A stretch of 64,000 bases of DNA, taken from the NCBI GenBank assembly GCA_020852705.1, contig JADZAP010000021.1:1-64000 (forward strand), written 5' to 3'. A program made the translations under genes and the position numbers. A model generated the notes under the pieces. The model saw nothing but the letters and a program-made list of their open reading frames with translations, ran no database searches and was not told the DNA's origin. The DNA comes from Ignavibacteria bacterium. Lineage in GTDB: Bacteria > Bacteroidota > Ignavibacteria > Tepidaquicellales > OLB5. Below, in pieces: positions 36,497 to 40,590 of the stretch (position 1 is its first letter; every line of letters starts with the position of its first letter).

Positions 36497-37987
36497 TTAC
36501 TTTCTTTTCGCAACTTCGCTGTGCAGTTCATCAAGCCGTTCGTTTATCCACTGGCTCATTATCCAACCGCGTTCGTTATGATCTGCAATAATATCTTTAA
36601 TATCACTTGCTGAATATTTTTCAGGCATTGCCTTTATTTTAAAAACTTTTTCAACAAAATAAATAGCATTAAGATATTTTTGTTTTAAAATATCAGTTAG
36701 ATCTGAGTTGGATTTTACATAAGCTCTAAATGCATTAACGGCATCCAATCCTGATTCAAATTCATTCATATTATAATACAGAATAAAATAAAGTCTTCTT
36801 ATGCGGATATTTATTTCTGTATCACTATGTCGTGCTTTAGCAATAAAGCCAAGTGCTTCTTTGTACTTTCCTTCTGCTTCCAGAATATATGCTTTGCAAA
36901 TATTATAATTTATCTCACGGTTAATCTTTCCAACTGAATCATCATATTTATCAAGAAATTCATTAGCGCCTTTGGTATCTTTTTCAAAAAGGAACATCAT
37001 TATTGTTTCAGAAAAATAATGGAAATTAAAAGGTCCAAGCCCTGCGGTATTGAATTTAACTTTTTCCATCATCAGTATTCTCATATCAAGTGATTCGCGC
37101 ATGAACCCCTGAATTTTATATCTGTGTGCTGTTGAACAGTACGAAAGCACCTTGGTTAATATAGAAAATCTTTCATAATTTTCATAACTATCAATTGTTT
37201 CGGCTAACAGCTTTTTAAGTTCAAAATATGGTGCTGTATCTTCGGGCTTTATAAGAAGCTTTATCAGGTAATTATTAAGTCTGATATAGCTGTATTCCCT
37301 TTCATTTATCCCCTTCAGCTCCTCTGTCATCTTTTCAAAATCTATGAACTTACCGGCGAGCTCAATAAAATCTTTTTCATACCGGCTGTTAACATTATCT
37401 ATGTTAATATGGATCTTCCAGAGGTTGCGTGAAAACCTTCTGTAAAAATCACATAACGTATAAATCATTTCGTCATAAATTGCATCTTCAAGTCCGCGGT
37501 AATCGTTGCGGGAAGAAAAGAAAAAATACTTTGATTCTTCAACCATTGCCCTGTCTGAATAATAATAATTATCAATTAGCTGGTTTTCAAGCTCCGAAGT
37601 AGTTTTTCCAATAAGCTTTCCATAATGTTTATCAAGGCGTCTGGTATCATACTGGTCAGCAAGTCTTATTGCTGAATATGTTTTATTTATAGCCATTGAC
37701 TTGTAGGAATTAATAGTAAGAAAATCATCAGCAAGGGCTGCAAGACCGCTGACAAGGTTTTTCATAATACCGTAGTTATACTGCTTGCCGGGAAATAGTT
37801 TTTTATATGCATCTTCTTCGGTCAGCTTGCCCTGGTTAATTTTCTTAATATCTTTTTTGATAAGCTCAAATAACTTTGACAGATTTTTATTTGTATTAAA
37901 GTAAGGTGATTCTGCAAATAAAGACATTTCCTTCAGCTCATCATTTGAGAATGTATTAAGAAGTTCAACTGCTTTAGTTTTAAGCAT
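36497..37987 (-). CDS. Hypothetical helical protein, SPYFNT-type paralogue 2
   Basis: A 496-residue soluble protein with no signal peptide, predicted helical with TPR-like hairpins in the C-terminal half (for example ICKAYILEAEGKYKEALGFIAKA). Its start (LLNTFSNDELKEMSLFAESPYFNT) and LADDFLTIN block match those of the protein at 1810-3246, 34.7 kb away. Two copies in one window suggest a larger lineage-specific family. It is convergent with ettA and adjoins the structured region at 38.1 kb. Function unknown. Confidence 0.75.
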   Translation of the reverse strand: MLKTKAVELLNTFSNDELKEMSLFAESPYFNTNKNLSKLFELIKKDIKKINQGKLTEEDAYKKLFPGKQYNYGIMKNLVSGLAALADDFLTINSYKSMAINKTYSAIRLADQYDTRRLDKHYGKLIGKTTSELENQLIDNYYYSDRAMVEESKYFFFSSRNDYRGLEDAIYDEMIYTLCDFYRRFSRNLWKIHINIDNVNSRYEKDFIELAGKFIDFEKMTEELKGINEREYSYIRLNNYLIKLLIKPEDTAPYFELKKLLAETIDSYENYERFSILTKVLSYCSTAHRYKIQGFMRESLDMRILMMEKVKFNTAGLGPFNFHYFSETIMMFLFEKDTKGANEFLDKYDDSVGKINREINYNICKAYILEAEGKYKEALGFIAKARHSDTEINIRIRRLYFILYYNMNEFESGLDAVNAFRAYVKSNSDLTDILKQKYLNAIYFVEKVFKIKAMPEKYSASDIKDIIADHNERGWIMSQWINERLDELHSEVAKRK

Positions 37988-38123
37988 ATTGAGTATATTT
38001 ATTAATAAAATTCATAAAAATTTTATGAAAAGAAATTGTTAAAAATACTCATTTTGTGCTTAAAATGCAGGTTTTTAAGTAATCCCCGAAAAAAATATTT
38101 ATGAAATATTTAATAATTTCTTT

Positions 38124-38155
38124 TTGTTATGGGCGTCATGAAAAAGTTAACTTTG
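38124..38155 (+). promoter_or_regulatory. Bacteroidota-type promoter upstream of the structured RNA segment
   Basis: TTG at 38124-38126 (in a TTTTTG run) and TAACTTTG at 38148-38155 (TAnnTTTG) are 21 bp apart. Transcription would start near 38162, right where the predicted RNA structure begins. Confidence 0.4.
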
Positions 38156-38161
38156 TATCAA

Positions 38162-38320
38162 TAAAATTCCGGTGGGGTCCAAAGGTTCAGTTCCCGAGCC
38201 AAAGTTAAACCAACAGAAGAATTTTTCCGAAGCAATCAGAATTGTTCTCCAAATCCCACCGGAGATACGCTGAAAAAAGACCTGCCGGCAATATTAGGCA
38301 GGCAGGTCAAAAAGCGTATA
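38162..38320 (+). ncRNA. Candidate structured RNA (leader or small RNA), undescribed
   Basis: Several stems can be drawn. P1 pairs 38168-38178 with 38253-38263 (TCCGGTGGGGT / ATCCCACCGGA, 11 bp with one G-U) and encloses two hairpins: 38184-38188 with 38196-38200 (GGTTC/GAGCC, 7-nt loop), and 38231-38236 with 38241-38246 (loop CAGA). P2 pairs 38265-38271 with 38313-38319 (ATACGCT/AGCGTAT) and contains an inner 8-bp stem 38279-38286 with 38301-38308 (GACCTGCC/GGCAGGTC). GC content here is clearly above the surroundings. The layout suggests a compact RNA, either a long 5' leader of the gene at 38371 or a separate small RNA. I match it to no known riboswitch. On the minus strand the last hairpin is followed by TTTTTT, so the strand is not certain. 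Confidence 0.45.
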
Positions 38321-38370
38321 ACTTAAAAATATTTTAGAGCAGCAATTTTTGAAAATTAATTTAAAATAAT

Positions 38371-40590
38371 ATGAAAAATTTAAAAACTTCATTCATCTTT
38401 TCTCCAAGAGATACCGCTATAGATTTGCATAAAACCCAAACATCCTTTAGGTATTTATTTGTAATTGCAATATTTATTTTTTCAATATTCAACTTACAAT
38501 CCCAGATGTTCTGGAATCAGGCTGGGAATTTTAACGGCAGTTCATATATTGCCGCTCCCAATACACTTTCGCTGAATATTGTTGGCAGCGTAACAGTTGA
38601 GGCATGGGTATATCCAATGACAAATACGGGAATCAGGTATGTTGTATTCAAAGGTAACGTATCAAATGGGTATTATTTAAGGATTAACTCTAACGGAACA
38701 GTTGGTTTTGGCACAAACGGCATCAACAGAATTAACAGTACCCAAACAGTTCCGCAAAACAAATGGACTCATATTGCGGGTTCATATAATGTTAATAACG
38801 ATGAGTTCAAAATATTTGTAAATGGGCTTATTGATGGCACACTAATAAGTAATAATCCCCCGGCAAATAACACTGATTCATTATTTATTGGCAAATATTC
38901 ATCAAGTTTTTTTACTGGATACATTGATGAAGTTAGAATATGGACAAAAGCAGCTGAACCAAACGATATCAGAAGAAATTTAAGGACATCGCTTTCAATT
39001 TCAAGCGGTAAATATACATCTCTTTTATTTTCAATGCCGTTCCAGCGAGTTAACTCTCAGGGGAATGTATTTACCATTCAGGATCTTTCATTTAACCCAA
39101 TTTCTGTAAATCCAACTGTTAACCGGGGTGTAACAGCAATTGATCTTTCAAACCGTCCTTCAACTTACTTAAGCGGAAATGAATCTCTGCAGTTTGAAGG
39201 AAATTTTTCCTCTTATGCTGCATTACCAAATAATTCATTAAACAGCTTAACGGGCGCAATGACAATAGAAGCGTGGATAAATGTTGAGGGATCCTCAGCA
39301 GTAAATCAATACATAGTTCATAAAAATGCACCCGGAGGGAACGGTTACAGACTTATGCTAAACAGCTCACAGAAATTAAGTTTTTCTCTAAACAATGCAG
39401 CATTTAATGAAGGGTCATCAATAATTGAATATAATAAATGGTATCATATTGCCTGGGTTGTTAGTCCCGCGGGAGCAACATCTTTGTATATCAATGGCAA
39501 TCTGGATGCATATTACGGTTCAGCCGGAACTCCGCTAGCAAACAGTGATTCATTGTTTTTTGGCAGAGGATTTAACGGAATGATTGATGAAATTCGTTTT
39601 TTCAGATTTGAAAGAACAGCTGCTGATATCAAAAAAACCATGTTTGAATCAATAGATGAATCAAACGCTCCATCGGGTGATTGCTTTGTTTTTAACTTTG
39701 ATGGCTCAGCATGGGCAAATAAGAACCTGCAGTTTTATTTTTTAAGAGGTAATACATATTTTTCAAGTCCTGCAACTTTAAATGCTGCATCAAGCCCGCT
39801 AATCAGAGCTGATAATATTAATTTTCGTGAGGGCTTTTATAAAAAGATTTCAAACAGAAGAATTCCCGAAACCGGCAATACCGGACTTATGGTTGATGAT
39901 TCAATAATGATACCTGATAATGTAAATATAAATGATGTGAACTTATATTTAAGTTTAATTCACGGTGCGGTAGAACAACTGCAAATTACATTAATTTCGC
40001 CTACCGGGCAAAACATTCAGCTCGTAAACGGATATATTCCCTTGGGCGCCGGTGTTGATTTTACTACTATAATTGATGATCAGGCAGATAGCACACTGAG
40101 CAGCAATACATATATACATATACTTTCAAGAATGAAATCTCTGGTTAATTTAAACAGTGTCTTTTCGGGCAGTAATGCCGCGGGTGTATGGAAGCTCAAG
40201 ATACAGGATATATCCGGGCTTGAAACAGGTAAGCTAATAGCATGGGGTTTGCAGCTTAACAACACACCGGTTATCGGAATTCAGACTATATCAAATGAAA
40301 TTCCCGGAAAATTTGAGCTTGGGCAGAACTATCCTAACCCGTTTAATCCAAAAACAAATTTCAAAATTCAGCTGTCAAATTCAGGCAATGTGAAAATTAC
40401 AGTATATGATATAACAGGAAAAGAAGTCAAGGTACTTGTAAATGAATTTTTAACTGCGGGAGTTTATGATATGGATTTTGATGCTTCGCAGCTTTCAAGC
40501 GGTGCATATTTTTACAAACTTGAAGTTCGTGAAAGCGGATCTGATGCCGTTAGATTTACCGACGTGAAAAAAATGATGCTTATTAAGTAA
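38371..40590 (+). CDS. LamG-domain secreted protein with proprotein-convertase P-like domain and T9SS sorting domain
   Basis: A 739-residue surface protein. A hydrophobic signal (about 28-44) follows an unusually long n-region of 27 residues. Two concanavalin/LamG-like domains follow at about 50-205 (VTVEAWVYP, NKWTHIAGSYN, GYIDEVRIWTKA) and about 270-430 (MTIEAWINVEG, NKWYHIAWVVS, GMIDEIRFFRFE). A P-domain-like beta sandwich is at about 490-630 (QLQITLISPTGQ ... GVWKLKIQDISG). The last 85 residues are a T9SS C-terminal sorting domain with NYPNPFNPKTNFKI and YDITGKEVKVLV, ending KKMMLIK. It should be exported through T9SS and anchored outside. Ligand unknown. Confidence 0.9.
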   Translation: MKNLKTSFIFSPRDTAIDLHKTQTSFRYLFVIAIFIFSIFNLQSQMFWNQAGNFNGSSYIAAPNTLSLNIVGSVTVEAWVYPMTNTGIRYVVFKGNVSNGYYLRINSNGTVGFGTNGINRINSTQTVPQNKWTHIAGSYNVNNDEFKIFVNGLIDGTLISNNPPANNTDSLFIGKYSSSFFTGYIDEVRIWTKAAEPNDIRRNLRTSLSISSGKYTSLLFSMPFQRVNSQGNVFTIQDLSFNPISVNPTVNRGVTAIDLSNRPSTYLSGNESLQFEGNFSSYAALPNNSLNSLTGAMTIEAWINVEGSSAVNQYIVHKNAPGGNGYRLMLNSSQKLSFSLNNAAFNEGSSIIEYNKWYHIAWVVSPAGATSLYINGNLDAYYGSAGTPLANSDSLFFGRGFNGMIDEIRFFRFERTAADIKKTMFESIDESNAPSGDCFVFNFDGSAWANKNLQFYFLRGNTYFSSPATLNAASSPLIRADNINFREGFYKKISNRRIPETGNTGLMVDDSIMIPDNVNINDVNLYLSLIHGAVEQLQITLISPTGQNIQLVNGYIPLGAGVDFTTIIDDQADSTLSSNTYIHILSRMKSLVNLNSVFSGSNAAGVWKLKIQDISGLETGKLIAWGLQLNNTPVIGIQTISNEIPGKFELGQNYPNPFNPKTNFKIQLSNSGNVKITVYDITGKEVKVLVNEFLTAGVYDMDFDASQLSSGAYFYKLEVRESGSDAVRFTDVKKMMLIK

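Follow-up and report, generated by a model that had tools for sequence, protein, structure and literature searches.

According to the passage of PMC3997798 that cites the work on ompA and papA, structure close to the 5′ end of an mRNA slows RNase E-type decay. H-type pseudoknot leaders and riboswitches, such as SAM-II and SAM-V, place interleaved helices within a 5′ leader. Within the superphylum considered here, structured RNAs found by comparison, some in 5′ UTRs, include the motifs Chlorobi-1, Chlorobi-RRM, Lnt, SAM-Chlorobi, Flavo-1, Bacteroidales-1, and 6S-flavo (Weinberg et al. 2010, PMC2864571). A typical feature of the invertible promoters of Bacteroidota is the presence of inverted repeats adjoining the promoters of surface proteins (PMC8748976, PMC4747536), and the −33/−7 promoter consensus of Bacteroidota is TTTG/TANNTTTG (PMC6847099).

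We analysed a 64,000-nucleotide stretch of DNA (the window) from an Ignavibacteria bacterium, in which a structured element of ~160 nt (38160–38320, + strand) follows a Bacteroidota-type promoter. The element is a conserved folded RNA of a kind absent from RNA databases; it has not been described before and comes from a phylum that has received little study. No Rfam 15 family reached its gathering threshold in the window, as the earlier note's proposal of a new RNA would predict, nor in six related loci of other types. Relaxing the search to an E-value of 10 returned nothing sensible (best weak match 17 bits, compared with 47.5 needed). Its features and flanking genes are as follows (basis in parentheses).

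36497..37987, − strand: divergent ~495-aa helical protein of a large paralogous family (family searches; AlphaFold2 model, pLDDT 91.7)
38123..38126, + strand: −33 promoter element TTTG (sequence; CTTTG kept in relatives with upstream sequence to compare; consensus of PMC6847099)
38148..38155, + strand: −7 promoter element TAACTTTG (TAA-TTTG invariant in 10 genomes)
38160..38370, + strand: putative 5′ leader up to the surface-gene start codon (no terminator; next start codon similarly spaced in relatives)
38168..38178, + strand: 5′ arm of the long stem S1, TCCGGTGGGGT (folding; compensatory changes in diverged copies)
38184..38200, + strand: hairpin P2 within the long stem, GGTTC...GAGCC, 38184–38188 with 38196–38200 (TA to GC pair change; 98% of cells paired)
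38246..38250, + strand: 5′ arm of S2, TCTCC (invariant in 10 genomes; CTACC/GGTAG or TTCCC/GGGAG in distant copies; CCC/GGG remnant in G011)
38253..38263, + strand: 3′ arm of S1, ATCCCACCGGA (folding; alignment comparison)
38261..38265, + strand: 3′ arm of S2, GGAGA, sharing GGA with S1 (comparison of distant copies)
38265..38319, + strand: stem-loop P3, with outer stem ATACGCT/AGCGTAT (38265–38271 with 38313–38319), an A-rich internal loop, and inner 8-bp stem GACCTGCC/GGCAGGTC (38279–38286 with 38301–38308) (z-score of −7.1; compensatory pairs)
38371..40590, + strand: downstream gene, LamG/P-domain protein with a T9SS sorting tail (Pfam)

The element resembles the Escherichia coli ompA and papA 5′ stabilizers in combining stable pairing near the predicted 5′ end with an mRNA for an outer-surface protein in a cell that has RNase E/G. 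Those stabilizers are simple hairpins, whereas the window's element, termed A-type here, is a long-range predicted pseudoknot of ~160 nt that would be preceded by ~8 unpaired nucleotides. Classic protective 5′ hairpins leave fewer unpaired 5′ nucleotides than this. Interleaved helices in a 5′ leader are shared with SAM-II and SAM-V, but the present leaders change their helix sequences wholly between loci, have a very long loop, and lack a shared ligand core or an Rfam match. The motifs of Weinberg et al. are likewise comparison-found RNAs of the same superphylum; most of them are in Rfam, yet no Rfam family reaches its cut-off at the present loci. At Bacteroidota invertible promoters, too, inverted repeats accompany a surface gene and its TAnnTTTG promoter, but for this element no inversion was observed, the promoter lies outside the repeats, and the pair changes are of the RNA type.

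That the element has its own promoter just before it, as the earlier note had suggested, is borne out by comparison with other genomes. The sequence TTTG-N21-TAACTTTG (38123–38155), with its 21-nt spacer, matches the sigma-A pattern of Bacteroidota (TTTG, ~19–21 nt, TAnnTTTG) and is conserved in 10 genus members, in whose alignment the promoter and start region (TAACTTTGTATCAAT) is almost invariant. The predicted transcript start is A38160, with G at −5 according to the published −7 consensus, 2 nt from the 38162 given previously. This start would leave ~8 unpaired nucleotides before S1. The space separating the divergent gene from the promoter also holds an AT-rich inverted repeat of 19 pairs (38025–38043 with 38109–38127), whose end is at the −33 box.

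The 11-bp long-range stem, the hairpin at 38184–38200, and the second stem-loop with its inner 8-bp stem are all present as originally described; a further hairpin claimed inside the long stem is weakly defined and unconserved. S1 has 11 pairs, one of them G-U. The region 38158–38330 folds at −57.0 kcal/mol, compared with −31.2 (SD 3.7) for shuffled sequences (z = −7.0; 0 of 200 shuffles as good). Its excess stability derives mostly from P3 (z = −7.1) and partly from the long-stem part (z = −3.8 alone). There is no T-run 3′ of P3 on the + strand. Overlooked in the earlier note was S2, whose 5′ arm lies within the S1 loop and whose 3′ arm directly follows, so that S1 and S2 are interleaved (ABAB) and the predicted fold is a pseudoknot. 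Both helices use GGA (38261–38263), which in nearly every copy is able to pair with either arm. Together they would form either a pseudoknot in which S1 is ~3 pairs shorter or a toggle between helices. A repeat that the earlier note suggested may act in DNA (TTAACTTTG/CAAAGTTAA) is present in the window, but its second copy (38200–38208) is absent in relatives; a DNA role is unsupported, and the match is probably due to chance.

A DNA search of 59 relatives showed that nine other genus members have clear homologues (66–77% identical). The element is thus found at one locus in 10 of 13 genus genomes, with a diverged copy in the same setting in an eleventh (G011). Copies lie ~220 bp from a divergent gene of ~495 aa and ~100 bp before a T9SS-type surface gene. 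In the alignment of 10 copies, the S1 arms and the block TCTCC-(2 nt)-ATCCCACCGGAGATA are invariant and the AT-rich loop is variable. Exact matches to the central block among 84,980 species, a collection that may omit the present genome, came only from eight Ignavibacteria MAGs (one titled Chlorobi bacterium OLB5). A plain DNA search of the present genome for further A-type copies matched only the window copy. A first covariance model recovered all ten copies and two weak matches, in G017 (L051) and at a second locus of G005 (L059). A second model found L187 (G011), L189 (G002), and L190 (G012), none of which was used in building it (E = 5.8e-5 to 1.2e-4, rough values scaled to one genome). 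These searches gave no match in G009 (99% complete) or G006 (64% complete). Further matches (L052, L053, L060, L062, and L188) were set aside as chance, as they had only a generic P3-like hairpin or poor pairing. L187 sits between a divergent family gene and a first surface gene of the kind seen in other species, and is very probably an orthologue with a diverged stem (ACCTGTGAGA/TCTCACAGGG). At the same locus (L187:1501–1700), TGTGAGATG occurs after P3, just before the start codon. It is complementary to nine nucleotides in the 3′ arm of S1 (CATCTCACA) and, in G011 only, might pair with them as an alternative.

Compensatory changes, which the earlier note had named as a test of its stems, were found in P2 and P3, in S1, and in S2. 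Among the ten close copies, five pairs of P2 and P3 changed on both sides (0 of 500 shuffles had as many), while S1 showed no change in the 100 cells of its ten conserved pairs and so is uninformative there. When distant copies were included (14 sequences), compensatory types appeared at four positions of S1 and three of S2; these alignments are small and sequence counts are not independent events. Paired cells amounted to 137/140 for S1 and 70/70 for S2, percentages that lean towards the model since the 14-sequence alignment was made by hand on the helices. G011 keeps S1 and P3 with compensatory changes, while its S2 is down to ~3 pairs. The element thus shows the pair changes beyond chance expected of a structured RNA, and interleaved helices supported by such changes are found in the A-type by comparison (S2 being weak in G011) and, with changes recorded in its second helix, in the C-type described below. 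Helices of the A and C alignments contain 45 G-U compared with eight A-C cells, which indicates that the + strand acts as RNA. The minus strand also folds, but the same asymmetry led us to reject a minus-strand RNA. Nor does a protein appear to be encoded there: the minus-strand frame noted earlier is open only partway across the region, and in nearly every relative stop codons interrupt all minus frames.

The overlap at the shared GGA outlives sequence change, as seen in distant copies, where ACC and ACC can both pair with GGT, or CC and CC with GG. The identity of S1 in 10 species exceeds the demands of pairing, pointing to recognition by some other factor or to a role in switching. An anti-Shine-Dalgarno function for TCTCC was considered and rejected: the arm stays unchanged in copies whose start codon lacks a preceding AAGGAGA, and its changes track those of GGAGA within the element.

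The same architecture recurs elsewhere. Among the 5′ flanks of 73 members of the divergent-gene family, several have a GC-rich long-range stem soon after TAnnTTTG, unrelated in sequence to the A-type. These include the C-type (AGGCTATATGATG/CATCGTATAGCC), D-type (GGCGAAACGGTAT/ATACTGTTTCGCC), and E-type (TACGGGACAGTCTG/CGGACTGTCCCGTA) stems, as well as others. A second, interleaved helix accompanies them (ATCCCCC/GGGGGAT in C, TTACTC/GAGTAA in D, and GGCAGGAA/TTCCTGCC in E), and the elements begin 4–21 nt after the predicted transcript start. A fixed filter (≥9 bp, 5 GC pairs, within 40 nt of TAnnTTTG), set after the first examples had been seen, was passed by 13 of 79 motifs in the flanks and by 4 of 237 in other sequence (Fisher P = 6e-6, counting orthologues and doubled motifs; there are ~7 independent types). 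All four of the latter were minimal 9-bp stems. By this GC-filtered scan, a stem of this kind occurs in only ~10 of the 73 flanks of family genes. A shuffle scan, in which 11 of the 73 flanks beat all 30 shuffles (~2.4 expected), was rejected as a guide in favour of the GC-filtered scan; it picked some AT-rich chance stems and, in the window, the AT-rich upstream repeat. The C-type is present in 11 genomes, including the present one (G000:C71:20919-21103). Across these, one pair of its second helix appears as AU, GC, or GU, the next changes from CG to UA, and a third from CG to GC. The present genome contains at least three leaders: A in the window, C on contig 71, and D on contig 55. Predicted pseudoknot leaders of several sequence families therefore recur at surface-protein loci, and a single interleaved architecture is common to several unrelated leader sequences, placed where surface-protein transcripts are predicted to begin. 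The same interlocked fold in related genomes and at other loci points to a common, though putative, mode of surface-protein control.

In two E-type leaders (L091 and L156), the interleaved second helix is followed by T6–T7 and could double as an intrinsic terminator. At four flanks of the present genome (L077, L078, L069, and L073), where no leader RNA was seen, the divergent family gene and the surface gene are separated by small ORFs of ~60–85 aa, some of which resemble ribbon-helix-helix proteins.

The genes around the A-type element vary between species. In relatives, the first gene after the element encodes a ~540-aa repeat protein (QVSQEWAKRYNS...) that is gone in the window, and the LamG gene is a later gene (57–69% identity). 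The LamG N-terminus (38371–38460, residues 1 to ~30, MKNLKTSFIFSPRDTAI...) looks like the beginning of the first gene that was lost (LFICSPRDANSQ), suggesting that a deletion fused two surface genes at this point; nearer divergent paralogues are likewise missing in the present genome. The position of the RNA as a 5′ leader, one of the roles offered in the earlier note, is supported, but LamG is not its conserved partner. On the other side, the adjacent divergent paralogue differs by species (26–28% identity in most, 48% in G001), and a 63–65% orthologue of the divergent protein occupies the third position of the array in G004 and G010. The C-type copy of the present genome has no adjoining family gene. 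Judging from these comparisons, the RNA outlasts both neighbouring genes. This turnover makes a private regulator-target pair less likely and favours a leader module that is self-sufficient; a trans-acting partner may be encoded elsewhere.

The divergent family has 13 copies in the present genome (36497–37987 in the window, and others on contigs C2, C28, C40, C49, and C55) and 27–56 per genome in 12 relatives, and its ~490-aa members are often divergent from signal-peptide/T9SS genes. It has no Pfam or NCBIfam match. The AlphaFold2 model of the window's member is a high-confidence TPR solenoid, whose top structure matches (residues ~126–496) are Rap/NprR regulators at Z scores of 15.2–13.0, with high rmsd and a common solenoid arrangement. 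The N-terminal 115 aa had no clear structure match. No RNA-binding fold was found among the structure matches, where the absence of other folds was given no weight.

No terminator-like site was found on the + strand between 37900 and 38500, and so none between the element and the gene. The transcript should therefore run on, making a 5′ leader the likeliest arrangement; the start-codon region is largely unpaired in the predicted fold. Our preferred reading, to which we give a little less than even weight, is that this leader sets the lifetime or output of the surface mRNA through a cis-acting 5′ pseudoknot. Transcription would begin near 38160 from the Bacteroidota-type promoter, and the first ~160 nt would fold into S1, P2, and P3, with S2 interleaving to give a pseudoknot or trading with the outer end of S1. 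Lying only ~8 nt into a long mRNA, such a compact fold would hinder 5′-initiated decay and could thereby set mRNA lifetime and protein yield. The genome encodes RNase E/G (E = 1e-96) and had no match to an RNase J model that matched 13 of 14 control genomes. We rank an effect on mRNA lifetime or output first because of this enzyme content and the known slowing of RNase E-type decay by 5′ structure. In addition, families without shared sequence have shape and 5′ position in common, a pattern more in line with a mechanical role at the mRNA's 5′ end than with a common ligand. Points against stabilization are the identity of S1 in 10 species, the ~8 unpaired 5′ nucleotides, the ~3 pairs of S2 in G011, and the occurrence of stems in only ~10 of 73 flanks. 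If the leaders do act in cis, they offer a concrete and testable handle on surface-protein control in T9SS bacteria, and would be a case of fold and 5′ position persisting while sequence, downstream gene, and neighbour gene turn over.

A regulated switch ranks second because the shared GGA and the extreme conservation of S1 are unexplained by simple stabilization, although we consider it unlikely. Full S1 would alternate with S2 plus a shortened S1 under a metabolite, a global RNA-binding protein, or temperature, altering transcription or translation of the surface gene. In keeping with this, the TCC of S1 and the TCC of S2 both pair with GGA, an overlap kept despite sequence change; S1 and the TCTCC..CCCACCGGAGATA block are invariant, as for a binding site; and T6–T7 follows the S2 3′ arm in E-type leaders, as in an attenuator. 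However, families A, C, D, and E have no shared sequence and hence no common ligand pocket, the A-type + strand has no terminator and a largely unpaired start-codon region, the downstream genes are non-metabolic, and no riboswitch was matched in Rfam even at an E-value of 10. Binding of the leader by the divergent TPR-like protein or a paralogue, with regulator and target belonging to the neighbouring surface gene, is distinctly less probable. A family gene adjoins every A-type copy checked, the family is highly expanded, and the solenoid's best matches are regulators. Nonetheless, the adjoining paralogue is not the same orthologue across species although the RNA is 66–77% identical with invariant S1, the present genome's C-type copy has no such neighbour, and Z scores near 13 are common among helical repeats, with no RNA-binding fold found.

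Slightly more doubtful still is a free-standing, trans-acting small RNA that merely lies upstream of the surface gene. Its own promoter, strong fold, and conservation despite changing neighbour genes would suit such an RNA, which should also have its own terminator; none is found at its 3′ end on the + strand (37900–38500), and in relatives the S1 3′ arm and the next start codon are no more than ~100 nt apart. Nor do the data support pairing between TCTCC and ribosome-binding sites, since TCTCC covaries with its own S2 partner. A DNA element, either an inverted-repeat operator or an invertible segment beside the surface gene, seems very improbable. It draws on the precedent of Bacteroidota invertible promoters (PMC8748976, PMC4747536). 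An invertible promoter would lie inside the repeats and occur in both orientations. Here, the promoter is outside the repeats and the orientation is the same in 10 of 10 genomes. Moreover, repeat sequences differ between loci, and the excess of G-U over A-C and the interleaved and nested helices fit RNA.

Beyond the preferred reading of a cis-acting leader, the loci might represent modular expression cassettes of Ignavibacteria, in which a promoter and an individually spelled pseudoknot leader drive an exchangeable T9SS surface protein, while the dozens-strong Rap-like TPR family reads signals, acts on leaders, and chooses surface proteins. We regard this broader scheme as improbable. Many of the surface-protein signal peptides (L033, L034, L071, L125, and others) have SPRD or SPRE just before the cleavage region. 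The SPRD motif was also considered as an RNA signal, but its codons differ, identifying it as a protein feature.
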